This document shows positions 1 to 11,678 of a stretch of DNA of 40,106 nt, piece after piece. The translations under genes and the position numbers were made by a program. Under the pieces are notes generated by a model, which was not told the DNA's origin, searched no databases, and saw nothing but the letters and a program-made list of their open reading frames with translations. The stretch comes from Actinomycetota bacterium. Its GTDB lineage: Bacteria; Actinomycetota; Actinomycetes; Actinomycetales; Microbacteriaceae. The stretch lies in assembly GCA_013297625.1 (NCBI GenBank), contig JAAFHT010000012.1:1-40106 (forward strand). Direction: 5' to 3'. The stretch's first letter is position 1; the number at the start of each line of letters is the position of its first letter.

Positions 1-1545
1 CGTCGCGGCCGTCCCGGCCACGACGCCCCCTACCTGACGGTGCTCGGCACCCCCGGTTTCGGCTTCCGCTCGGGCGAAGTGTGGGCGCTCCACCACGCCT
101 GGAGTGGCAACAGCACGACGGGCGTCGAGTCGATGCCCACGGGCCACCGCCGTCTGCTCGCCTCAGAGCTACTCGACCCCGCCGAGATCGTGCTCGCCCC
201 GGGCGAGACCTACACAACCCCCGAGACCGTCCTCGCGTGGTCGAACACCGGACTAGACGGCCTGAGCGACCGCTTGCACCCCTTCGTGCGCGCCCTCACT
301 CCCCCGACGCACCGCCCTGTCGTGCTCAACACGTGGGAGGCCGTCTACTTCGACCACGCGCTCGAATCACTCATGCCCCTCGTCGACGCGGCGGCTGAGC
401 TCGGCATCGAGCGCTTCGTGCTCGACGACGGGTGGTTCACGGGCCGCACTGACGACCGCCGCGCGCTGGGCGACTGGACGGTTGACCCGGAACGCTGGCC
501 ATCCGGGCTGCACCCCCTTGCCGACGCCGTTGTCGAGCGCGGGATGGAGTTCGGCCTGTGGGTCGAGCCCGAGATGGTGAGCCCCGATTCGCGGCTGGCG
601 CGGGAGCATCCCGAGTGGATGCTCGCCGATGCCGCCGACGACACCCAGCATCCCCCCACCTGGCGCTTCCAGCACACGCTCGACCTCACGATCGACGAGG
701 CGCGCGCCCACGTGCTCGAGGCCCTGAGCGCGCTGCTGGCCGAGGACCCCATCGCCTTTCTCAAGTGGGATCACAACCGCGACCAGCACGCCGGCACCGC
801 GGCGGCCCACACGCGCGCGGTGTATGCGCTCATTGATGACCTGCGCGCGCGTTTTCCGCATGTCGCCATCGAGAGTTGCGCCTCGGGCGGGGCGCGCGTC
901 GACCTCGGCATGGCCGCGCGGGTGCATCGCTTCTGGACGAGCGACACCAACGACGCCCTCGATCGGCAGCGCATCCAGCGCTACAGCGGTCTGCTCATGC
1001 CACCCGAGTTGCTCGGCGGCCACGTCGGCGCACCGCGCGCGCACATCACAGGACGCACGCACGACCTGTCGTTCCGCCTCGCCACGGCGCTGTTCGGCAG
1101 CGCGGGCATCGAGTGGAACGTCACGACCGCCGACTCCGCCCAGCTCGAGGCGTTGCGTGAGTGGGTCGCGACGGTCAAGCTCGTGCGCCCGCTGCTCACG
1201 ACGGGCCGCACGGTGCGCACCGACGAACCCGGCGACGACCGCTATGTGCACGGCCTCGTCGCGCACGATGGTTCTGAGGCGCTCATCGCCCTTGTGACGC
1301 TGTCGACGGCGGCCGTCGCGGTGCCGCCTCCCCTGCGTTTTCCGGGGCTCGACCCCGACCGGCGCTATCGCATTGAGCCCCTCACCGTGGGCGGGCCGCC
1401 GCATGCGGTTCAGGATGCTCCCCCCGCGTGGCTCGCCGACGGAGGCATCACCCTCACGGGTCGGCTGCTTGCCGACCTCGGGCTGCCCGTTCCGCTACTC
1501 GCGCCCGAGCAGGCGCTGCTGCTGCGTGCGGTCGCGGTCGACTAG
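1..1545 (+). CDS. alpha-galactosidase, GH36 family (5' end outside window)
   Basis: This is the C-terminal two thirds or so of a clan GH-D alpha-galactosidase, which hydrolyses terminal alpha-galactosides such as melibiose and raffinose. The frame is open from the first base, so the GTG at 40 is internal and the true start lies upstream. The catalytic barrel is clear: VLNTWEAVYF, the VLDDGWF segment, GLWVEPEMV, then KWDHNR, whose Asp (bases 769-771) is the expected nucleophile. SCASGGARVDLG follows, then RFWTSDTND, whose Asp (943-945) is the expected acid/base. A short beta-sandwich tail ends the protein. No signal peptide can be judged. The next gene points towards it, so any operon partners lie upstream of the window. 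Family assignment is secure; substrate range is inferred. Confidence 0.93.
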   Translation, partial: RRGRPGHDAPYLTVLGTPGFGFRSGEVWALHHAWSGNSTTGVESMPTGHRRLLASELLDPAEIVLAPGETYTTPETVLAWSNTGLDGLSDRLHPFVRALTPPTHRPVVLNTWEAVYFDHALESLMPLVDAAAELGIERFVLDDGWFTGRTDDRRALGDWTVDPERWPSGLHPLADAVVERGMEFGLWVEPEMVSPDSRLAREHPEWMLADAADDTQHPPTWRFQHTLDLTIDEARAHVLEALSALLAEDPIAFLKWDHNRDQHAGTAAAHTRAVYALIDDLRARFPHVAIESCASGGARVDLGMAARVHRFWTSDTNDALDRQRIQRYSGLLMPPELLGGHVGAPRAHITGRTHDLSFRLATALFGSAGIEWNVTTADSAQLEALREWVATVKLVRPLLTTGRTVRTDEPGDDRYVHGLVAHDGSEALIALVTLSTAAVAVPPPLRFPGLDPDRRYRIEPLTVGGPPHAVQDAPPAWLADGGITLTGRLLADLGLPVPLLAPEQALLLRAVAVD

Positions 1546-1569
1546 GACTGCAGCGCACTGTGCTTCTTG

Positions 1570-2299
1570 CTACGCCTGCAAGGCGTAGAGCGCCACGGCG
1601 CTCGCGGCCGCGACGTTGAGCGAATCAACGCCATGCGCCATGGGGATCGTCACGCTCGGGCGCGCTCGCCGCGAACTCGCGCAAGCCCACGGCGTCGTCG
1701 GCCAATGCGAGAGCGGCAATCGTGAAGCCCGCGGCATGCAGCTCGGGCACGGCGTCGCTCCACTCGGGCAGCCGCGTCCACGGCACCTGCAGAACCGTGC
1801 CCATCGACACGCGCACACTGCGACGGTAGAGCGGGTCGGCGCAGCGCGGCGTGATGAGCACGGCGTCTGCTCCGAGGCCCGCCACCGAGCGGAAGATCGC
1901 TCCGACGTTGGTGTGGTCGACGACGTCTTCGACGATGACGACACGGCGGGCATCCCCTAGCACGTCAGCAACCGTGGGCAGCGCGGGCCGGTGCATGCTC
2001 GCGAGGGCTCCGCGGTGCAAGTGAAAGCCCGTGAGTTCTTCGAGCAAACCGGCCTCGCCGACATACACGGGCACGTCGAGGTCACCCACGAGAGCCTCGA
2101 GATCGGGGAGCCACTTCTCGCTCGTGAGCACCGACCGCGGCTCGTGCCCGGCCCGCAGCGCGCGGCCGATGACCGTGATCGACTCGGCGATGTAGAGGCC
2201 GCCTCCAGGCTCGGTCGCGACGCGCAGAGCGACGTCGGTGAGCCGCGCGTAGTCGGCGAGAGCGGGTTCGTCGAGCGTCGTAATGTGCTCGATGCGCAT
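1570..2299 (-). pseudogene. SpoU/TrmH-family RNA 2'-O-methyltransferase, broken by an out-of-frame internal deletion
   Basis: The gene reads well from ATG 2299 (MRIEHITT) through the RNA-binding N-domain and SPOUT motif I (VEDVVDHTNVGAIFRSV) to about base 1655. The rest of this frame (PERDDPHGAWR, stop at 1625) is not family-like. The conserved C-terminal motif III, IPMAHGVDSLNV followed by AAASAVALYAL, lies in a different frame and ends at the stop at 1570; the two frames meet at base 1654. SpoU enzymes normally carry motif II (a GxEGxGL-type loop of the SAM-binding knot) between these blocks, and here it is absent. About 25-30 codons therefore seem to be missing as well as the frame being lost. 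This fits a real deletion better than a one-base sequencing error. ORF callers that start at 2419 extend too far upstream. Confidence 0.8.
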
Positions 2300-2403
2300 G
2301 GATGCCCGCCTTTCGCTCGCAACGCGTCGGTCGCCCTGCCAGCCTCCGGAAACATACTCGAAATCAGAGCGTTCTAGTCTGCAAGGGAACCACCGGAGGC
2401 CCC

Positions 2404-3255
2404 ATGTCGATCGCCGCACCGCTCGTCGAGCTTGATGCGGCCGCGCGTGCCTCCGTCGAGCAAGCGATCGAGCTGCTGCGTGGCCGTCGCATCGCGGTGC
2501 TGACGGGGGCGGGCGTGAGCACCGACTCCGGAATCCCCGATTACCGCGGTGTCGGCGCTCCCGTGCGCACGCCCATGACCTACAGCCAGTTTTTGGCTGA
2601 CGAGCCCTACCGCAAGCGCTATTGGGCCGGCAGTCACCTCGGGTGGGAGCGCTTTGCCGCCGCAGGCCCCAACGCGGGGCACCGCACGCTCGCCGACCTT
2701 GAGCAGGGTGGCGTCGTCACAGGAGTCGTGACGCAGAATGTCGACGGCTTGCACGTGCGCGCGGGCAGTCGTCGCGTCGTCGACTTGCACGGCAGCATGG
2801 ATCGCGTCACGTGCTTGCACTGCGGCCAAACCTTCGACCGCGGAGCCATCGCCGAGCGCATCGCTCGCCTCAACCCCTGGCTGACCGACGCCGACGCCAC
2901 GATGAACCCTGATGGCGATGCCGAGGTTGCCGACGTCTCGCGCTTTCAGGTTCCTGAATGCTCGGTGTGTGGGGGCACGCTCAAGCCCGACATCGTGTTC
3001 TTTGGCGAGTTCGTGCCGCCCGTCAAGTTTGAAGAGGCGCGCGGCATTGTGGCTCGATCGGATGCTCTGCTCGTGCTCGGCTCCTCCCTCGTCGTCAACT
3101 CGGGCATCCGGCTCGTGGGCCTCGCCGCCAAGAAGCGCATTCCCACGATCATCGTCAACCGCGGTGAGACGAAGGCTGACGCTCGCGCCGCGCTCAAGAT
3201 TGACGCGGGAACGACGGAAACCCTCGCGGCGTTCAGCGAGGCCTTGCTCGCCTAA
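2404..3255 (+). CDS. SIR2-family NAD-dependent protein deacylase (sirtuin)
   Basis: A 283-residue sirtuin that removes acyl groups from lysine using NAD. The start is ATG 2404, preceded by GGAGG with good spacing; an in-frame extension to 2302 has no support. The NAD-binding GAGVSTDSGIPDYRG lies at residues 35-49, TQNVDGLH at about 110-117, and the catalytic His in LHG at 129. Four zinc cysteines are visible: CLHC (137 and 140) and CSVC further on. GSSL and IIVNRG complete the Rossmann fold. The GIPDYR motif and the segment after it resemble class II (SIRT4-like) sirtuins rather than the CobB class, but this sub-class call is an inference. The gene diverges from the broken methyltransferase across about 100 bp and has no partner downstream. 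Confidence 0.93.
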   Translation: MSIAAPLVELDAAARASVEQAIELLRGRRIAVLTGAGVSTDSGIPDYRGVGAPVRTPMTYSQFLADEPYRKRYWAGSHLGWERFAAAGPNAGHRTLADLEQGGVVTGVVTQNVDGLHVRAGSRRVVDLHGSMDRVTCLHCGQTFDRGAIAERIARLNPWLTDADATMNPDGDAEVADVSRFQVPECSVCGGTLKPDIVFFGEFVPPVKFEEARGIVARSDALLVLGSSLVVNSGIRLVGLAAKKRIPTIIVNRGETKADARAALKIDAGTTETLAAFSEALLA

Positions 3256-3291
3256 CGGCGAAGTCGCCACTCATGTGAGAGTATCTCGATC

Positions 3292-3756
3292 ATGACTCGA
3301 CGAATCGCCGTGCTGCCGGCGCTGATCATTGCCACGTTCGTGATGGCCGGATGCAGTGCGCCCGAAGCTGAGCCGACATCCGCTCCCACCGGCGACTCGG
3401 AATCCAGCGCGACCAGTCCGCTCATGGACGTTCCCTCCAGCGATGCGAACTGGGAGTGCGGACACGTGAGCGCGCTCCTTGGCATTCAGACCCGATCAGA
3501 GTGGGAACTCGAGAACGGTGTGATCGACCAGGCCACCTTTGACGCGCGCGCTGCGGGGCTGGTTGATGCCTGGACGCAGCTTCCCCAGGGTCAGTCCGAT
3601 GTCTCCCCTGCCCTGCAGGAAGCCAGTGCCGCCGCGCCGGATGGCATTGGTGGCGAGAATGTGGTGTTCACACGCGCAATCGACTCACTCGGCTCGACGT
3701 GCGATGCGGCGGGGTCTGTCGTCATCTTCGGCACCCTGCCTGAGATGGGCGGCTGA
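3292..3756 (+). CDS. small secreted lipoprotein of unknown function
   Basis: A 154-residue protein with a type II signal peptide: two Arg residues near the N-terminus, a hydrophobic stretch at about 5-19, and the lipobox VMAGC with the lipidated Cys at 21. A Ser/Thr/Pro/Glu-rich spacer (22-50) should tether a small globular domain to the outer face of the membrane. That domain contains two further cysteines (56 in WECGHV and 137 in STCDAAG), which could form a disulfide. I recognise no enzyme or binding family. The gene stands alone, 36 bp after the sirtuin and 56 bp before the phosphatase. Confidence 0.85.
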   Translation: MTRRIAVLPALIIATFVMAGCSAPEAEPTSAPTGDSESSATSPLMDVPSSDANWECGHVSALLGIQTRSEWELENGVIDQATFDARAAGLVDAWTQLPQGQSDVSPALQEASAAAPDGIGGENVVFTRAIDSLGSTCDAAGSVVIFGTLPEMGG

Positions 3757-3812
3757 GCAACGCGACCTTCGACCCCGCCTAGGCTGATGAGGTTGGACGA
3801 AAGGGAATCCTC

Positions 3813-4448
3813 ATGACGGTCTTCGCACTCGTGCGGCACGGCGAAACCGATTGGAACCGCGAGCGGCGCATCCAGGGCTCGACCGACATCCCGCTCAACG
3901 ACACGGGGCGTGAGCAAGCTCGCGTCACGGGAGCCCTTCTCGCGAGTCGCCGCTGGACCGCGCTGGTCGCCTCGCCTCTGTCACGCGCATCCGAAACCGC
4001 GCGTCTCATCGGCGCCGAGGTGGGTCTCGGTGACCCCGAGCTTGAGCCGCGGCTCGCCGAGCGCGACTACGGCGCGGCTGAGGGACTCACCGGCCCCGAG
4101 ATTGACCTTCGCTACCCCGACGGCGCTGACGTGCCGGGTCGCGAACCGCGCGAAGCCGTCGCCGAGCGGGCCGTTGCCGCCCTGCACGACCTGGCCGCGC
4201 GTCACCCGGGCGAAGCCGTCATCGTCGTCGCGCACGGCGGTGTCATCCGCAGCCTGCTCGAGACGGTTGCACCGGGTCGGCACCGCGAGCCGATCACCAA
4301 TGGTTCGGTGCATTCGTTCCGGCACGCCGACGGGGCCCTCGAGCTCGTCGCCTTCGATGACCCCATCGACGAGCAGTCGATCTTTCCAATGGCAGTCGAC
4401 TTTGAGCAGCAGAACCGGCTCGCCGAGCGCGAGCGCGAGGGCCGCTGA
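3813..4448 (+). CDS. histidine phosphatase family protein (phosphoglycerate mutase-like)
   Basis: A 211-residue member of the histidine phosphatase superfamily. LVRHGETDWN at residues 6-15 contains the phospho-accepting His (9) and its Arg (8). RIQGSTDIPLNDTGREQA follows in the usual place, and VVAHGGVIRSL carries the second catalytic His. The family includes cofactor-dependent phosphoglycerate mutases and broad phosphatases. The short length and divergent middle favour a phosphatase (PhoE/GpmB-like) over the glycolytic mutase, but the substrate cannot be read from sequence. The stop codon overlaps the start of the YbaK-type gene by one base (TGATG at 4446-4450), so the two are probably translated together. 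Confidence 0.93.
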   Translation: MTVFALVRHGETDWNRERRIQGSTDIPLNDTGREQARVTGALLASRRWTALVASPLSRASETARLIGAEVGLGDPELEPRLAERDYGAAEGLTGPEIDLRYPDGADVPGREPREAVAERAVAALHDLAARHPGEAVIVVAHGGVIRSLLETVAPGRHREPITNGSVHSFRHADGALELVAFDDPIDEQSIFPMAVDFEQQNRLAEREREGR

Positions 4449-4921
4449 TGGCGAGCGGCCCCGAGCGGTTTGTGGCGGCGACCGCGCACCTGCCGATTAC
4501 CCCGCAACGGATGCCCGACTCCACCCACACGGCCGCCGAAGCCGCGGATGCCGTGGGTTGTGAGGTCGGCGCGATCGTCAAGTCACTCGTCTTCGTCACC
4601 GTCACTGACTCCGAGCGTGAGCCCGTGCTCGCACTCGTGTGCGGCGACAACCGTGCCGACCTCGATGCCCTCGCGAGCGTCGTCGTCGCTCGCATCGAGA
4701 AGGCGGACGCGAACACGGTCAAGCAGGCGACGGGCTACTCAATCGGCGGCGTGCCCCCGCTCGGACATCCCGCGCCCGTGCGTACGGTGATCGACCGCGA
4801 CCTGCTGCGCTTCGAGACCGTCTGGTCGGCAGCGGGCAGTGCCTACGACGTCTTCGCGGCGACCCCACAGCAGCTCGTCGAGTGGACGGGCGGCGAGCTC
4901 GCCGACATCGGTTCGCGCTGA
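4448..4921 (+). CDS. YbaK/EbsC-family aminoacyl-tRNA deacylase
   Basis: A 157-residue single-domain protein of the YbaK/ProX superfamily, whose members hydrolyse mischarged tRNAs such as Cys-tRNA(Pro) or Ala-tRNA(Pro). Visible family features are TAAEAADAVGCEVGAIVKSLVF with the conserved Lys, the LALVCGDNRAD strand, and the SIGGVPPLGH loop that forms the substrate pocket. It begins on the last base of the phosphatase stop codon. Which mischarged tRNA it edits cannot be decided here; actinobacterial proteins of this type are often annotated only as YbaK/EbsC family. It converges on the minus-strand membrane-protein gene, with 22 bp between the stops. Confidence 0.92.
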   Translation: MASGPERFVAATAHLPITPQRMPDSTHTAAEAADAVGCEVGAIVKSLVFVTVTDSEREPVLALVCGDNRADLDALASVVVARIEKADANTVKQATGYSIGGVPPLGHPAPVRTVIDRDLLRFETVWSAAGSAYDVFAATPQQLVEWTGGELADIGSR

Positions 4922-4943
4922 CCCGCATCGTCAGGCCTTGTGG

Positions 4944-6101
4944 TCAGCGACCTGCCTCTTTCCTGGGCCCGGGGCCGGGGTATACGGCGCCCCACTCGGC
5001 GTCAGAGAGAAACGGCTTCCCTGCGTCGCGGATGATCTCGCCGCTAACTGGATGCCTCTGGTCCAAATCGATGAACTTGTCCCGATAACTGGTGTAACCC
5101 CGATCGAACTCTCGGTTGCTCTCGATGCGCGCCATGACGTGAAAGACGTACGAGGCAAGTGGGGGACCGAAGATGAGCACGGCGGCGATGGGAATGAACG
5201 GAACTCGTGCATCACCGAGTGACAGCAATACGAACGCGAAGAGGCCAGAACCAGCACTTGCCACTCCGGCAATGAAGCTCAAGCGCTGGAGACGAAAGGC
5301 TGAGATTCCCCGATGCACCTGCCGCGCATCGTAGGACGAGGCTCGGTGCGTTTCCTTGTGCGCAGGAGGACTTGTCCTCGGTGAGATCGGCGTGACCATA
5401 GTTTCTTCAGATCGCTGCGGAAGAGCGGGACCCGGGGACTGAGGGCTCGCCGCGTCAGTGCGGCCTCGGGCGATCTGGGAGACAAACTCGATGAGCTCAG
5501 CGCGTCGGTGAGGGCGGGTGTAGAACGTCCACTGACGATCGAGGGGTGAGAACGGAAAGCGTGAGTCCGGCTCGGCGAGTCGCAGAATGATCCTCCCCGG
5601 CTTGCTCGCTGCGGTCGCCGCTTCCGTTGTCACGTCGACAATCCGGCTCCAGGGAAGGACAATGTCGCCTTGAGATGACGGCTGCAGAAAGCGCACACCG
5701 CTAGTCGAGAAAACAAGAACACCGGCGAAGGGTAAGGCGGAGATCCAACCCCCTGAGTGAACGAAACGGGTCTTCTCTTGCCAACGGGTTTGAACCACAC
5801 CGACATAGAACGAGTCCGCGTGCTCAGTCGAGGCGACCCGAAGGAGACGAGACACAAGGACACCCTGCACGACCATATAGAGCACGAAGAGCGCAATGAG
5901 GCCAGCAAAGATGACGACGATGATCCCTAAAGTCATCCGGCTATCGCCCCGGCCACTCACCGCGATGTCAGGCAAAAACTGATCTAGTGCGAAGCCGCCC
6001 CAAAGTGCCAGCGCCGCGATAGCGGCAGCAACTCCGTTGATGATCCAGAAAGCTTGCGGGCCGGCCTTGTCTTGACTGCTCTCGCCATCGTGAGTCGTCA
6101 C
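4944..6101 (-). CDS. four-segment membrane protein with a PH-like middle domain, unknown function
   Basis: A predicted 385-residue membrane protein. I place the start at GTG 6101, because it overlaps the stop of the upstream glycosyltransferase gene in a 4-base GTGA; the longer frame to 6227 reads into that gene and starts with low-complexity Arg/Ala. Two hydrophobic segments lie at about 18-38 and 57-83. A soluble domain follows (roughly 90-215) with a short hydrophobic hairpin, VLPWSRIVDVTT, and an HRRAELIEFV end that looks like the PH-like folds of bacterial membrane proteins. A Pro/Ser linker comes next, then two more hydrophobic segments at about 274-295 and 300-322, and a charged C-terminus. 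I do not recognise a named family. Coupling to a glycosyltransferase suggests a cell-envelope role. Confidence 0.75.
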   Translation of the reverse strand: MTTHDGESSQDKAGPQAFWIINGVAAAIAALALWGGFALDQFLPDIAVSGRGDSRMTLGIIVVIFAGLIALFVLYMVVQGVLVSRLLRVASTEHADSFYVGVVQTRWQEKTRFVHSGGWISALPFAGVLVFSTSGVRFLQPSSQGDIVLPWSRIVDVTTEAATAASKPGRIILRLAEPDSRFPFSPLDRQWTFYTRPHRRAELIEFVSQIARGRTDAASPQSPGPALPQRSEETMVTPISPRTSPPAHKETHRASSYDARQVHRGISAFRLQRLSFIAGVASAGSGLFAFVLLSLGDARVPFIPIAAVLIFGPPLASYVFHVMARIESNREFDRGYTSYRDKFIDLDQRHPVSGEIIRDAGKPFLSDAEWGAVYPGPGPRKEAGR

Positions 6102-7201
6102 TGGGGGGCCGCCCGACGGCCTCCGAGAGCGGCCTGCTCGCGCAGCAACTCGAGCAGCACGGCTGCCGAACGACTCCAGTCGAAGCGCGCGGCCTCGGCG
6201 GGTGCGGTGGCCGAGCGACGCTCCCACTCCCCCGTGGCCAGCAGTTCGGTGATGCGGGCGGCGAAAGCATCCGCATCCCCTGCCGCCGCATAGAGCGCCG
6301 TGTCGCCGCCGATTTCGCGGAAGATCGGGATGTCGCTCACGACGACGGGCGTGCCGCGGCCCATGGCCTCGACGAGCGGGATGCCGAAGCCCTCATCGCG
6401 CGAGGCACTCACAAGCGCCGTCGCGCTGTCGAGCAGTGCGGCATACTCCTCGTCGGTCACGCCGTCATGCACGACAAGCGCGCCGGCGGGCGCTGCCGCT
6501 TCGAAACGCTCGCGATCGGCAGGGCGAATATGGCTCAACAGGTGCAGCCGTGCGCCGGGGAGCTGGCTGAGCGCCGCGACGAGCGTGTCGACGCCTTTGT
6601 AGGGCATGAACGAACCCATGTAGACGAGGTCGATACCCTCGGGCCGGGTTCGAGGTGCGACAACGGTCGGCCGGTCGGCGGCGTTCGGCACGACCGTGAT
6701 CGAGCGCTTGGTGAGCCGGTGCTGCCGCATGAGCTCGCGCGTGGTGTCGCTCACGGTCACGACGGCGTCGGCGCGATTAAGCAGCAGCCGCTGCGGCCAC
6801 CACGCGAGGTGGTACAGCCGCCAGCCGAGGCGCACGGGCCACGGCAGGTCGCGCGGTGGCGTCGGATGCGCGTAGTAGATCAGGTCGTGCAGCGTGAGCA
6901 CGAGCGGGTAGCGCCGACCGAAAGCTCCCATGGTCTGCATGGGGCTGAAGACGACGTCGGGCGACACGTGATTCACCTGCCGCGCCACAAAGGGCTCACG
7001 CGGGCTTGTGGGGCCGCTCACGCGATGCCATGGCAGCCCCCCGGGCAGCATGGCGAGTTGCCGCTCGTCGCTGATGAGCAGTTCGAGCGACTCGGTGTCG
7101 GCGAGTTGCGCGCGCAGGGCATCCACGAGGCTCGCCGTGAACCGGCTGATGCCGTCGTGGCGCGGAAACCGCACGTAGCGACAGTCGACGACGATCTTCA
7201 C
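6098..7201 (-). CDS. glycosyltransferase family 4 (GT-B fold)
   Basis: A 367-residue retaining glycosyltransferase of the GT4/GT1 group. The N-terminal acceptor domain begins MKIVVDCRYVRFPRHDGISR. The C-terminal donor domain shows VYMGSFMPYKGVDTLV, the donor-phosphate region, and the EX7E signature in DEGFGIPLVEAMGRG. There is no signal peptide or membrane segment, so it should act at the cytoplasmic face. The acceptor is unknown; lipid, wall glycan or glycolipid are all possible. It is the second gene of a tight operon: the hydrolase stops 3 bp upstream, and the membrane protein starts within its stop codon. Confidence 0.93.
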   Translation of the reverse strand: MKIVVDCRYVRFPRHDGISRFTASLVDALRAQLADTESLELLISDERQLAMLPGGLPWHRVSGPTSPREPFVARQVNHVSPDVVFSPMQTMGAFGRRYPLVLTLHDLIYYAHPTPPRDLPWPVRLGWRLYHLAWWPQRLLLNRADAVVTVSDTTRELMRQHRLTKRSITVVPNAADRPTVVAPRTRPEGIDLVYMGSFMPYKGVDTLVAALSQLPGARLHLLSHIRPADRERFEAAAPAGALVVHDGVTDEEYAALLDSATALVSASRDEGFGIPLVEAMGRGTPVVVSDIPIFREIGGDTALYAAAGDADAFAARITELLATGEWERRSATAPAEAARFDWSRSAAVLLELLREQAALGGRRAAPQ

Positions 7202-7204
7202 GGG

Positions 7205-8089
7205 CTACGCCAGAAACTCACGAATGGCCGCGGCCGCCTCGACGGGCTTCTCGTAGTGGACGAGGTGGCCGACGCCCTCGATGACGACGAGCTGGGCATC
7301 CGGAAAAAGCGTGACCAGGCGGCGCTGGGCCTCCAGCGGCGTGATGTCATCGTTGTCGGCGACGATCAGCAGGGTGTTTTGCGCGATGCCGGCGGCATAC
7401 TCCGAAACATCGTGAGAGACGGATGCGCGAAACGCCTCGAGCAGGCTGTCACGGTTCGCGAAGGCCGAGAAGTAGCGGTCGTGTTCTTCGTGAATCCACC
7501 GTCGCAGTTCTTTGTCGTCGGTCTTGGCCATCGTCACGCTCATGATGCGGGTCACGAGTCGGCTGCGAAGCGCGGCGAATCCGAGTCGTTGCGGCAGCGC
7601 GGCGCCGACGCGATAGAAGCCGACGGCGAGGCGCGTGAGAACGCCCCGCGGTCCCGCGAGCGCGTTCTGACCGATGGGGTTGATGAGCACAACCCGGGGC
7701 GTCGGCACCCCGCTTGCGACTGCGGCCGAGACCACGATCGACCCAAACGAGTGCCCGAGCAGCACCGCGGTGCCGCGCACGCCCGTGGCGGCGAGAAAGG
7801 CGTCGAGCCACGCGATGTAGCCCTCGATGTCGTGGGGGCGGTCGGCCAGCGGCTCGCTCGAGCCAAAGCCCGGGAGATCAGGGGCGAGAAAACGGATGCC
7901 CGGCAATTGCGCCACGACGGGCCCGAGCCCGTGGTGGTCGCCGCGAAAACCGTGCACGAGCACGACCGTGCGATCAGCGTCGGCCGGCCCGTATTCCACG
8001 AGGTGGGTCGAGACGCCGAGCACGTCGATCGTGCGATCGCGAGCGGGGATGAGCGCGAGGGCGTCGGCGTACGGGGAGGCGATAGGCAT
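7205..8089 (-). CDS. alpha/beta-fold hydrolase
   Basis: A 294-residue alpha/beta hydrolase starting at ATG 8089 (MPIASPYADAL); the longer frame to 8323 crosses the divergent exonuclease gene and is rejected. The oxyanion HGF sits at 46-48, the nucleophile elbow GHSFGS puts Ser at 114, VADNDDITP carries the likely acid, and GVGHLVHYEKP the catalytic His. These are carboxylesterase/lipase-type features with no clear substrate signature. It heads the operon with the glycosyltransferase and the membrane protein, so an acyl-ester or glycolipid substrate is a reasonable guess. The start faces the exonuclease gene across 51 bp, so promoters for both must overlap there. Confidence 0.9.
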   Translation of the reverse strand: MPIASPYADALALIPARDRTIDVLGVSTHLVEYGPADADRTVVLVHGFRGDHHGLGPVVAQLPGIRFLAPDLPGFGSSEPLADRPHDIEGYIAWLDAFLAATGVRGTAVLLGHSFGSIVVSAAVASGVPTPRVVLINPIGQNALAGPRGVLTRLAVGFYRVGAALPQRLGFAALRSRLVTRIMSVTMAKTDDKELRRWIHEEHDRYFSAFANRDSLLEAFRASVSHDVSEYAAGIAQNTLLIVADNDDITPLEAQRRLVTLFPDAQLVVIEGVGHLVHYEKPVEAAAAIREFLA

Positions 8090-8140
8090 TGCCTTCAGTC
8101 TAGGCAGGCCGCCGTCGGCGCACAGGCCTAGGCTGGCCGC

Positions 8141-8836
8141 GTGACCCTCTTGCAGCGCAGTCTGGCCGTCTTTGACCTCGAAACGACGGGGGTGGATGTT
8201 CGCACCGCCCGCATCGTCACCGCGTGCGTTGCCGTGCTCGACGCCTCCGGCGCTCTCGTTTCGCGCCGTGACTGGCTCGCCGACCCCGGCGTCGAGATCC
8301 CGGAGGGTGCCGCCGCTATTCATGGCATCACAACCGAGCGCGCGCGGGCCGAGGGTCGCCCGGCCGCCGAGGTGGTGGCGGAGATCGTTGGCGAGCTGAG
8401 CGCCCAGCTCAGCGCGGGCTTGCCCCTCGTGGTTTACAACGCCCCCTACGACTTGTCACTGCTGAGGTTCGAAGCCGAGCGGCACGGTGTCGCGCCTCTT
8501 GTCGACCCTGCTCCCGTCGTCGACCCGCTCGTCATCGACAAGGCCGTCGACCGCTACCGCAAAGGCAAGCGCACCCTCGAGGCGGCAGCCGCGCACTACG
8601 GGGTTGCCCTCGACGGGGCCCATGACGCCGGGGTCGATGCGATTGCCGCGGGCCACGTTGCCCGCGCCATCGTCGAAGCGCACGCGGCGAAACTGCCCAT
8701 CACGCTCTCCGAGCTGCACACATCCCAGGTCACCTGGCACGAGCAGCAAGCCTCGAGCTTCGAGGACTACATGCGCACGCAGCGCGACCAACACTTCATG
8801 GCCGACCGCGGTTGGCCCGTTCGCGTGGACTCCTAA
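8141..8836 (+). CDS. DEDDh 3'-5' exonuclease (DnaQ/epsilon-like)
   Basis: A 231-residue stand-alone exonuclease of the DnaQ/RNase T fold. Motif I is FDLETTG (Asp 12, Glu 14), motif II is YNAPYDLSLL, and motif III is HDAGVDAIA. These supply the DEDDh metal ligands. GIT and the IHGITTERA segment are also typical. Proteins like this are usually annotated as DNA polymerase III epsilon-like or as a general exonuclease; there is no polymerase domain. The start is GTG 8141. The C-terminal tail beyond the fold ends FMADRGWPVRVDS, and the DNA coding for the last 15 or so residues is repeated about 450 bp downstream. Confidence 0.92.
   Translation: MTLLQRSLAVFDLETTGVDVRTARIVTACVAVLDASGALVSRRDWLADPGVEIPEGAAAIHGITTERARAEGRPAAEVVAEIVGELSAQLSAGLPLVVYNAPYDLSLLRFEAERHGVAPLVDPAPVVDPLVIDKAVDRYRKGKRTLEAAAAHYGVALDGAHDAGVDAIAAGHVARAIVEAHAAKLPITLSELHTSQVTWHEQQASSFEDYMRTQRDQHFMADRGWPVRVDS
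8786..8824 (+). repeat. direct repeat, left copy (inside exonuclease 3' end)
   Basis: This 39-bp stretch encodes DQHFMADRGWPVR near the end of the exonuclease. It matches 9237-9275 at 37 of 39 positions; the two differences are T to C changes, one altering Met to Thr and one silent. Confidence 0.9.
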
Positions 8837-8856
8837 CGCCTTCCGTGCGAACCGGG

Positions 8857-9168
8857 TCAGCTCGACAAACCCCCGGTCGCAATGAACATGAACGACAGCA
8901 GGAGCGGGCTCAAAAAGAAAACGAGCGTGGCGGCAAGGGTCACGGAGGCGATGATCATGGCCGCGAGTGACACTCTCCATCCGGCCAGCCTTGGGTCGGC
9001 TCGCAGCACGGTTCGACTCCTCAGCGACAGCCACACTCCCACTGCTGCGAGAACCGCGCCAATTGCTGGTGCGATCATGGTGGCGATTCCGCCTGCTACT
9101 GCAACCGTGAGGGCCGCCAGAACGATGCCCGGGTAGGTGCGGGCAGTAGAAGTACGCTGCGTGGTCAT
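8857..9168 (-). CDS. small membrane protein, unknown function
   Basis: A 103-residue, very hydrophobic protein. Two hydrophobic stretches (about 14-47, probably one long or two short helices) are followed by a basic loop (SLRSRTVLRADPRLAGWR), then one or two more segments (about 66-97). The topology resembles many small actinobacterial membrane proteins, but I recognise no family. It is oriented opposite to the exonuclease and ends 20 bp beyond it. Copies of the exonuclease 3' end lie on either side of it, which suggests that it arrived as an insertion. Confidence 0.7.
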   Translation of the reverse strand: MTTQRTSTARTYPGIVLAALTVAVAGGIATMIAPAIGAVLAAVGVWLSLRSRTVLRADPRLAGWRVSLAAMIIASVTLAATLVFFLSPLLLSFMFIATGGLSS

Positions 9169-9236
9169 TCTCGAACACTAAAGCCTGTGTCGAGACCAGT
9201 GTGCTGTGCATCCTCACTGAGCACGAAACGACGAAG

Positions 9237-9275
9237 GACCAACACTTCACGGCCGACCGCGGCTGGCCCGTTCGC
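9237..9275 (+). repeat. direct repeat, right copy (relic of exonuclease 3' end)
   Basis: A relic of the exonuclease C-terminus, encoding DQHFTADRGWPVR and then Ser and an in-frame TAA (stop ending at 9281). It has no start or body and is not a gene. It lies between two copies of a 14-bp sequence, CGAAACGACGAAGG (9224-9237 and 9291-9304); the second copy is the left arm of the rpmE2 terminator. Confidence 0.88.
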
Positions 9276-9298
9276 TCGTAACCTAGCGCGCGAAACGA

Positions 9299-9331
9299 CG
9301 AAGGGCCCCGCCATCATGGCGGGGCCCTTCG
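9299..9331 (-). terminator. intrinsic terminator hairpin after rpmE2
   Basis: A perfect 14-bp stem (9299-9312 with 9318-9331) closes a 5-base ATCAT loop. The stem contains GGGCCCC and ends in AAG/CTT. There is no long T-run, as is common for actinobacterial terminators. It starts 16 bp beyond the L31 stop on the minus strand and could also stop transcription arriving from the plus strand. Confidence 0.85.
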
Positions 9332-9346
9332 CGGTGCAGTAGGTGA

Positions 9347-9595
9347 CTACTGACCGAAGTTCTTGAAGCGCTGGTTGAACTTCTCGACGCGACCGGCCGA
9401 GTCGAGGATGCGCTGCTTGCCCGTGTAGAACGGGTGTGAAGCCGACGAGATTTCAACGTCGATAACGGGGTAGGTAACGCCGTCAAGGTCGATGGTCTTG
9501 TCGCTCGTCACGGTCGAACGCGTGAGGAACGTCTCGCCCGAGGCCAGGTCGCGGAACACGACGGCGGCGTACTCGGGGTGGATGTCAGTCTTCAT
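9347..9595 (-). CDS. rpmE2: 50S ribosomal protein L31 type B (zinc-free)
   Basis: An 82-residue L31 type B (MKTDIHPEY to FKNFGQ), a protein of the large ribosomal subunit that contributes to the bridge with the 30S subunit. It has no cysteines and so lacks the CxxC zinc site of the type A paralogue. Type B forms often replace type A when zinc is scarce, under Zur control. The start is ATG 9595, with the typical [10 protein letters not shown]-terminus; the in-frame extension to 9664 has no support. No clear Zur palindrome is visible upstream, and no other zinc-stress ribosomal genes are nearby. Confidence 0.96.
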
Positions 9596-9644
9596 GAGCG
9601 GATTCCTTGGAAGTGTGTGGTGAGCGCAAGCGATTCGGTGCGCA

Positions 9645-9671
9645 GCGATAGGCACGAGGCCCAACGGTCAA
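9645..9671 (-). promoter_or_regulatory. possible rpmE2 promoter
   Basis: On the minus strand TTGACC (9671-9666) is followed after 15 bp by TATCGC (9650-9645), about 50 bp before the L31 start. The -35 match is good, but the spacer is short and the -10 is weak, so this is only a candidate. Confidence 0.3.
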
Positions 9672-9701
9672 GAATAGCAGAGGCGCAGAGGTACGAGAGC
9701 G

Positions 9702-10484
<783 letters not shown>

Positions 10485-10496
10485 GATGCCTCCAGC

Positions 10497-11678
10497 CTAG
10501 AGCAGGCTGCGATACAGCTCGGTCGTGCGCTGGGCGATGCGGTCCCACGAAAACATCTGTTCGGCTCGCTCTCGACCTGCGGCGCCCATTGCGTAGGCGA
10601 GGTTCTCGTCACTCACGACCTCGGTGAGTGTAGCCGCAAGATCGGCAATGAACTGCTCGGGGTCGAGCGGGGTGCCCGAGCCGTCGTGTACCTGGTCAAT
10701 CGGAACGAGTCGGCCCGTGACGCCATCGTCGACCACCTCGGGAATACCGCCCGTGTTCGTGCCCACGACGGCGACTCCGCACGCCATGGCTTCAAGATTG
10801 ACGATTCCCAGGGGCTCGTAGACGCTCGGGCAGACGAAGCTCGTGGCGGCAGAAAGCACCGCCGAGAGTTCGATGGGCGACAGCATGCGTTCGATCCACA
10901 CCACGCCCGTGCGCTCCGTCTGCAGCGCCGCGACGCCGTGCTGCACCTCGCGCAGAATCTCGGGGGTATCGGGGGCACCCGCACACAGAATGAGCTGCAC
11001 GTCGGGTGGAAGCCGACGCGCGGCCTCGAGCAAGTACGGCAAGCCCTTCTGCCGCGTGATGCGGCCCACGAAAACAACCGAGGGACGGTCGGGGTCGATC
11101 CCGAGCGCGCGCACGGCATCGTGGTCGATCGTGCGCTGCCAGCGCTCGAGATCAATGCCGTTGTGAATCACCGTCACGCGCGACTCGTCAATGTCGGGGT
11201 AGCACCGTAGGATGTCGCGACGCATGCCGTCGCTCACGGCGATGACAGCATCCGCCGATTCGAAGGCGTTCTTTTCGATCCAGCGCGAAATGCGGTAGCC
11301 GCCGCCGAGTTGCTCGGCCTTCCACGGGCGCAACGGTTCGAGGCTGTGGGCCGTCACGACGTGCGGGATGCCGTGCAGCAGTTGCGCCAAGTGGCCTGCC
11401 GCATTGGCGTACCAGGTGTGCGAATGCACGATGTCCGCACCGTCGACATCGTCGGCAATCGCCAGGTCAACGCCGAGGGTGGCAAGGGCAGGATTCGCCG
11501 AGCTGAGTGCGCCCGGAACGAGGTAGGCGTGCGTGTCGGCCTCATTGCGCGGAGCGCCAAAGCACCGCACGCGAACGTCGTGATCGTCGCGCAAAGCACG
11601 CACGAGTTCGGCGACGTGCACCCCCGCTCCCCCGTAGACCTCGGGCGGATACTCACGGCTAATCACATCGACGCGCAT
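10497..11678 (-). CDS. glgA: glycogen synthase / alpha-maltose-1-phosphate synthase, actinobacterial type
   Basis: A 393-residue GT4 enzyme beginning MRVDVISREYPPEVYGGAGVH, with the nucleotide-sugar binding and EX7E motif in EPLGIVNLEAMACG. This is the actinobacterial GlgA type. In mycobacteria its counterpart (also called GlgM) joins ADP-glucose to glucose-1-phosphate to make maltose-1-phosphate, feeding GlgE-dependent glucan synthesis. Whether this enzyme lengthens glycogen directly or makes maltose-1-phosphate cannot be told from sequence. It faces glgC across 63 bp, which makes the ADP-glucose it needs; the shared region holds a palindrome likely to be an operator. Confidence 0.93.
   Translation of the reverse strand: MRVDVISREYPPEVYGGAGVHVAELVRALRDDHDVRVRCFGAPRNEADTHAYLVPGALSSANPALATLGVDLAIADDVDGADIVHSHTWYANAAGHLAQLLHGIPHVVTAHSLEPLRPWKAEQLGGGYRISRWIEKNAFESADAVIAVSDGMRRDILRCYPDIDESRVTVIHNGIDLERWQRTIDHDAVRALGIDPDRPSVVFVGRITRQKGLPYLLEAARRLPPDVQLILCAGAPDTPEILREVQHGVAALQTERTGVVWIERMLSPIELSAVLSAATSFVCPSVYEPLGIVNLEAMACGVAVVGTNTGGIPEVVDDGVTGRLVPIDQVHDGSGTPLDPEQFIADLAATLTEVVSDENLAYAMGAAGRERAEQMFSWDRIAQRTTELYRSLL

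Follow-up and report, generated by a model that had tools for sequence, protein, structure and literature searches.

How did the end of an exonuclease gene come to stand twice in the same stretch of DNA, once in the working gene and once on the far side of a small membrane-protein gene that is read in the opposite direction? The question is raised by the window, meaning here the whole 40,106-base stretch that was analyzed (Table 1). The duplicated sequence is a direct repeat (8786-8824 and 9237-9275) in which 37 of 39 bases are identical at a spacing of 451 bases, and a comparison of 39-base pairs at spacings of 40-2000 over the entire window found no further locus with at least 33 matches. 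The first copy corresponds to the 13 codons that precede the exonuclease ending VDS*, the C-terminus of the protein being ...DQHFMADRGWPVRVDS*. The second copy, which we call the relic, keeps the codon phase of the repeat (DQHFTADRGWPVRS), and extends into a serine codon and a TAA (9279-9281); after it comes the hairpin (9299-9331). The extent of the repeat, its phase and the stop of the relic were all as originally predicted, and so was the lone opposite-strand ORF of 103 residues between the copies, which has two long hydrophobic stretches (approximately residues 11-51 and 61-103).

Table 1. Features of the window at and around the duplicated gene end.
Feature	Position	Strand	Basis
DnaQ-like exonuclease gene, 231 aa	8141..8836	+	ORF; NCBIfam NF005927; Pfam RNase_T
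39-base repeat, copy 1, within the end of the working gene	8786..8824	+	37/39 versus second copy
Gene end VDS* and 20-base spacer	8825..8856	+	Comparison of 24 genus loci
Hydrophobic membrane-protein gene, 103 aa	8857..9168	-	ORF, hydrophobicity
14-base direct repeat, copy 1 (terminator leader of the occupied allele)	9224..9237	+	Exact match
67 bases missing from G008	9224..9290	+	Alignment; placement within the 14-base repeat arbitrary
Relic: duplicated exonuclease gene end, TAA included	9237..9281	+	Repeat comparison, G008 alignment
14-base direct repeat, copy 2, running into the terminator hairpin	9291..9304	+	Exact match
Terminator hairpin between the exonuclease and rpmE2 sides	9299..9331	n/a	Pairing and folding
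rpmE2, type B ribosomal protein L31, right flank of the variable gap	9347..9595	-	NF002462

The exonuclease scored 301.6 bits against NF005927, a DNA polymerase III subunit epsilon subfamily (cut-off 186), and rpmE2 scored 129.4 bits against NF002462 (cut-off 86), while the membrane protein matched no Pfam or NCBIfam family at cut-off. The arms of the hairpin (9299-9314 and 9316-9331) are paired at 16 of 16 positions. Rfam gave no match at gathering scores over positions 8000-10500. A scan for sigma-70 promoters and T-run terminators over 8600-9700 returned zero sites; sigma-70 scans of this kind cover actinobacterial promoters poorly, and the hairpin has neither the T run nor the loop length that the terminator scan requires.

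The gap between the exonuclease and rpmE2 was compared across 26 genomes of the genus (Microcella group), with one genome per species. The exonuclease was present in 25 of these (G015 has none, and G025 has only a fragment of it, at the end of a contig). In the 24 genomes other than these two, the distance from exonuclease to L31 was readable. Fifteen of the readable gaps were short, at 72-172 bases, and were judged empty by length; the remaining nine were occupied by genes of at least five kinds. The membrane gene alone fills the gap in the window, G008 and G022, and it is accompanied by an ABC exporter pair in G016. The other occupied gaps hold an ABC pair (G012), a GNAT acetyltransferase (G005), a GNAT acetyltransferase with a 123-aa ORF (G017), an 86-aa ORF (G002) and larger ORFs without a name (G003). 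A wrong-frame ORF of the G005 gap had no Pfam match and was discarded in favor of the correct frame, which is the acetyltransferase. The G003 gap (L138 1364-2662) includes a 432-aa ORF with TAGHC and GDSGGP, which we take to be trypsin-like protease motifs, and this ORF had no Pfam match. With 15 empty and nine occupied loci, the site is variable. Both expectations of the original prediction were borne out: gene-free relatives join the exonuclease directly to the terminator (15 of 24), and other genes are found in the gap where it is occupied (9 of 24).

Whether the relic is particular to the window was assessed in two ways. A gene-end pattern allowing up to three mismatches was found at two places in the window's genome, at one place each in 11 others and nowhere in 14; the pattern reaches 12 of the 26 genomes, and in the remaining 14 only a scan of the gaps would reveal a second copy that had diverged. 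That scan covered 97 gaps (94 plus three longer ones) with 200 shuffles each, and among them no further clear repeated gene end was found: the window scored 34 and every other gap 12 or less. The 94 gaps, among them that of the window and those of several genomes entered under two ids, came from 112 rows. The 18 rows left out were L001 and L002 (window repeats), five without L31 in reach, of which three genomes were covered by the longer loci, and 11 exonuclease frames without a near stop. One locus, L070, exceeded its 200 shuffles (11.5 versus 10) and three more (L112, L073 and L054) fell near the top of theirs; these scores lie far below that of the window and were taken as chance. Furthermore, the membrane gene occupies the site in G008, G016 and G022 with no repeated gene end. 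The suggestion of an insertion hot spot holds insofar as the gap between the convergent genes varies, but the repeat, clear in one of 97 gaps, does not mark a mechanism dedicated to insertion.

These comparisons bear directly on site-specific integration at the gene's 3' end, in which the 39-base repeat would represent attL/attR-like ends, the element would restore the gene end and a recombinase would act in trans. A 451-bp unit flanked by direct copies of a gene 3' end is what some integrase targets look like. However, the one gene of the unit has no Pfam or NCBIfam match at cut-off, so no recombinase was seen within the unit; three other species carry the same gene at the site without the repeat; and no other clear repeated end was present among the 97 gaps. 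That many kinds of cargo occupy the site without a repeat likewise disfavors such integration, which we consider highly improbable.

The closest comparison is with the sister species G008, where gene order and spacer are the same and the exonuclease has the same unusual end (ADS* instead of VDS*); among the 24 genus loci, the end and spacer at 8825..8856 are common only to these two species. Between CACTGAGCA and the terminator, exactly 67 bp are missing from G008, equivalent to the relic plus one copy of CGAAACGACGAAGG, and differences counted in the alignment of the excised spacer were 2 of 55 and 2 of 110. Since CGAAACGACGAAGG is an exact 14-base direct repeat flanking the relic, a deletion between its two copies in the window would yield the G008 arrangement. 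The left joint of the relic, at 9236-9238, is abrupt and has one base common to both sides, where the occupied allele reaches CGAAACGACGAAGG and the empty allele begins GACCAAC. In the occupied allele this edge corresponds to a point six bases into the first arm of the hairpin.

To the right of the exonuclease, identity to G008 was 88-98% per 500-base step (mostly 93-98%), and the window contig was colinear with G008 over 31 kb. Two other stretches of the genome were 93% (3,255 of 6,000 bases) and 98% (5,998 of 6,000) identical to it. By 500-base step, identity was 85-94% over window positions 1-8720 and mostly 93-98% over 8720-40106. Low values (85 and 88%) were observed at 10700-11299, within the glycogen synthase gene, with neighboring steps at 94% and 98%. 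Positions 5000-5900, in the region of a minus-strand ORF (4944-6227), had no counterpart in the compared G008 and G016 stretches; the part of this ORF at 4944-6014 had no NCBIfam match.

An assembly or chimera artefact, perhaps from mixed strains, would also explain a relic that is present in one genome only, and that genome is a draft. However, the single base shared at the left joint would be too little for an overlap-based misjoin, and rightward the contig remains colinear with G008 over 31 kb. We regard an artefact as quite unlikely.

The relic itself carries several signs of its ancestry. It has a Thr codon (ACG) where the window's gene has Met (ATG) and that of G008 has Ala (GCG), and a Thr codon, one or another, stands at that position in all 22 of the other genus genes. 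The gene ends of the window and G008 differ at 4 of 39 bases; the relic differs from each at two, and at each of the four it matches one or the other. Its codon CAA is common only to the window's and G008's genes among the 24 of the genus, which suggests that the relic comes from the same species group. The stop of the relic lies 17 bases from the hairpin, just short of the range of 19-72 measured at empty loci (12 of 15 were measurable, as G021, G020 and G007 have no perfect stem of at least 8 and hence fall outside this measurement). The gene end and terminator of the empty loci in G006, G013 and G019 each give one continuous alignment to window positions 9234/9237-9331, with identities of 77%, 73% and 78%, respectively. 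These sequence comparisons make the gene end of an empty allele in the same species group the most likely source of the relic. No empty allele of that species group was found, and its form is reconstructed from the relic together with relatives that are more distant. The original prediction held that an ancestral gene ended at the relic and its terminator; this describes the form of the empty allele, while the order of events that it implies is one of two that would be possible.

We propose, with a probability of roughly 0.7, that the window is a hybrid of occupied and empty alleles of one site, joined by recombination. The gap between the exonuclease and the convergent rpmE2 holds either the terminator and little else, or one to a few genes. 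The occupied allele would have contributed the gene end VDS*, the membrane gene and the terminator leader. The empty allele, from the same species group, would have contributed the last 45 bases of the gene (stop included), the spacer and the terminator, and the two would have been joined at the foot of the terminator hairpin with one base of shared sequence. The putative empty parent would read ...GWPVRS* TAA, then CCTAGCGCG, then the terminator. Such a joint could have formed between incoming and resident DNA, with one side homologous and the other illegitimate, or by template switching at the hairpin, and it would require no function of the relic. As the 14-base direct repeats lie 67 bases apart, the relic would presumably be easily lost, with the G008 arrangement as the product. 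The overlap of one base counts against this explanation, since 3-10 bp is given for most comparable joints (PMC3240628), and so does the relic-to-hairpin distance, which falls slightly outside the range of the empty loci.

An identical order of parts would result from a tandem copy of the whole exonuclease gene (e.g. by single-crossover integration of a circular donor) of which all but the tail was then deleted, and the relic does run into the terminator. This route requires an extra large deletion, however, and a tblastn search of the 12 other loci with an exonuclease match showed a single copy at each and no longer remnant; it appears unlikely.

The history of the membrane gene bears on the order of events within the hybrid. 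Relatives of its product were found in G008 (90% amino acid identity), G016 (66-67%), G022 (58-59%) and G025 (59%, partial). In G016 and G022 the gene lies in the same exonuclease-L31 gap, and in G025 it adjoins L31 at a contig edge, with the exonuclease side outside the contig. The genus protein search gave matches at E ≤0.001 in 16 of 26 genomes, those beyond the window and these four species being weak (E 8e-8 to 1e-3, 39-50%, partial length). A family-wide search with an alignment of the protein gave weak matches (E 2e-11 to 1e-5) in 6 of 149 other genomes sampled evenly from the family. The window thus shares the membrane gene with other species, and the gene, lying at the site in G016 and G022 and beside L31 in G025, is older than the relic. 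The original proposal that the gene arrived with the event that made the relic finds no support in that form, as G008 has the gene and the new end without the relic, and G016 and G022 have the gene as well.

Of the 312 bases of the membrane gene, 13 are different in the window and G008, giving 11 replacement and 2 silent differences. Two silent changes in 13 do not depart from an expectation of one-quarter (P 0.54), and the differences from G008 would thus be compatible with no purifying selection. Estimates of dN/dS were ∼0.18 to G016 and ∼0.33 to G022.

Two orders of events would produce the hybrid. In the first (order A), which is also that of the original prediction, an occupied segment would have entered an empty ancestor of the window and G008, placing the new end and the membrane gene upstream of the old end, and G008 would later have lost the relic between the 14-base repeats. 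The membrane gene and right flank are similarly close in the window and G008 and so were probably inherited in common, the deletion between the repeats gives the G008 arrangement, and the relic carries genus-like states. However, G016 and G022 carry the gene in this gap and G025 carries it beside L31, so that an empty ancestor would probably require loss followed by regain; we consider this order less likely than not. In the second (order B), DNA from an empty strain would have entered the window's lineage, making the relic a late gain. Order B would need fewer events, given the presence of the membrane gene in G016, G022 and G025. The relic was seen in one genome, a 2.43-Mb draft in 181 contigs, and on this evidence either allele may have been the donor.

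Recombination at this locus is also suggested by the divergence between the window and G008. Values of dS were 0.02-0.16 in the membrane gene, L31, an ABC gene, glgC and fabG, with glgA (0.42) and serB (0.22) as exceptions on the right. For the exonuclease and the two genes to its left, dS was 0.48-0.60; the same three genes gave 0.44-0.57 to G016, i.e. G008 is as distant here as G016. Within that gene of the exonuclease, positions 8600-8723 show 24 differences from G008 in 124 bases and positions 8724-8797 show 1 in 74, the latter being an interval in which the 22 other genus genes differ far more from the window. This drop in divergence places a recombination boundary inside the gene, approximately 60 bases before the repeat, and on these substitution patterns a large homologous import probably took place in either the window's lineage or that of G008. 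At 8798-8847, 9 of 50 bases differ compared with 18 of 560 in the surroundings (P 2.8e-5, for a stretch picked after looking); the excess may reflect a new gene end that is less constrained, or a small patch of gene conversion.

Most likely the relic is not a new system but an ordinary mark left when bacterial genes are shuffled. A more ambitious reading would make the gene end the target of an exchange process that works without an integrase: short cassettes would be swapped at the hairpin foot, each bringing a replacement gene end, and the relic would be a rare uncleaned intermediate. We give this very little credence. The clean joint shows small genes coming and going between two convergent housekeeping genes, and it indicates that a duplicated gene end need not signal a mobile element. 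Locally, these results are of use for the annotation of this genus.

Among known systems, some integrases target gene 3' ends and leave a repeat of the gene end around the inserted unit. The window resembles such target sites in that a gene 3' end is repeated around a unit, and differs from them in that the unit shows no recombinase and the other occupied loci show no clear repeat. The nearest described process is homology-facilitated illegitimate recombination (HFIR) during uptake of linear DNA (PMC3240628). HFIR has one homologous and one illegitimate joint, exchanges a small segment at an otherwise conserved place, and forms joints that mostly have 3-10 bp of overlap and are accompanied by deletion (PMC3240628). 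Unlike these products, the window carries an insertion with a short duplication rather than a deletion, its overlap is one base, and the event, its homologous side included, is a reconstruction. Small variable segments, or microdiversity loci, are described as common within species and different between close relatives, with 23-48% of them intergenic and 10-18% of segments having flanking direct repeats (PMC2884548). Although such loci are defined within species and our comparison spans the species of a genus, the window is like them in being a short segment that differs between close relatives.
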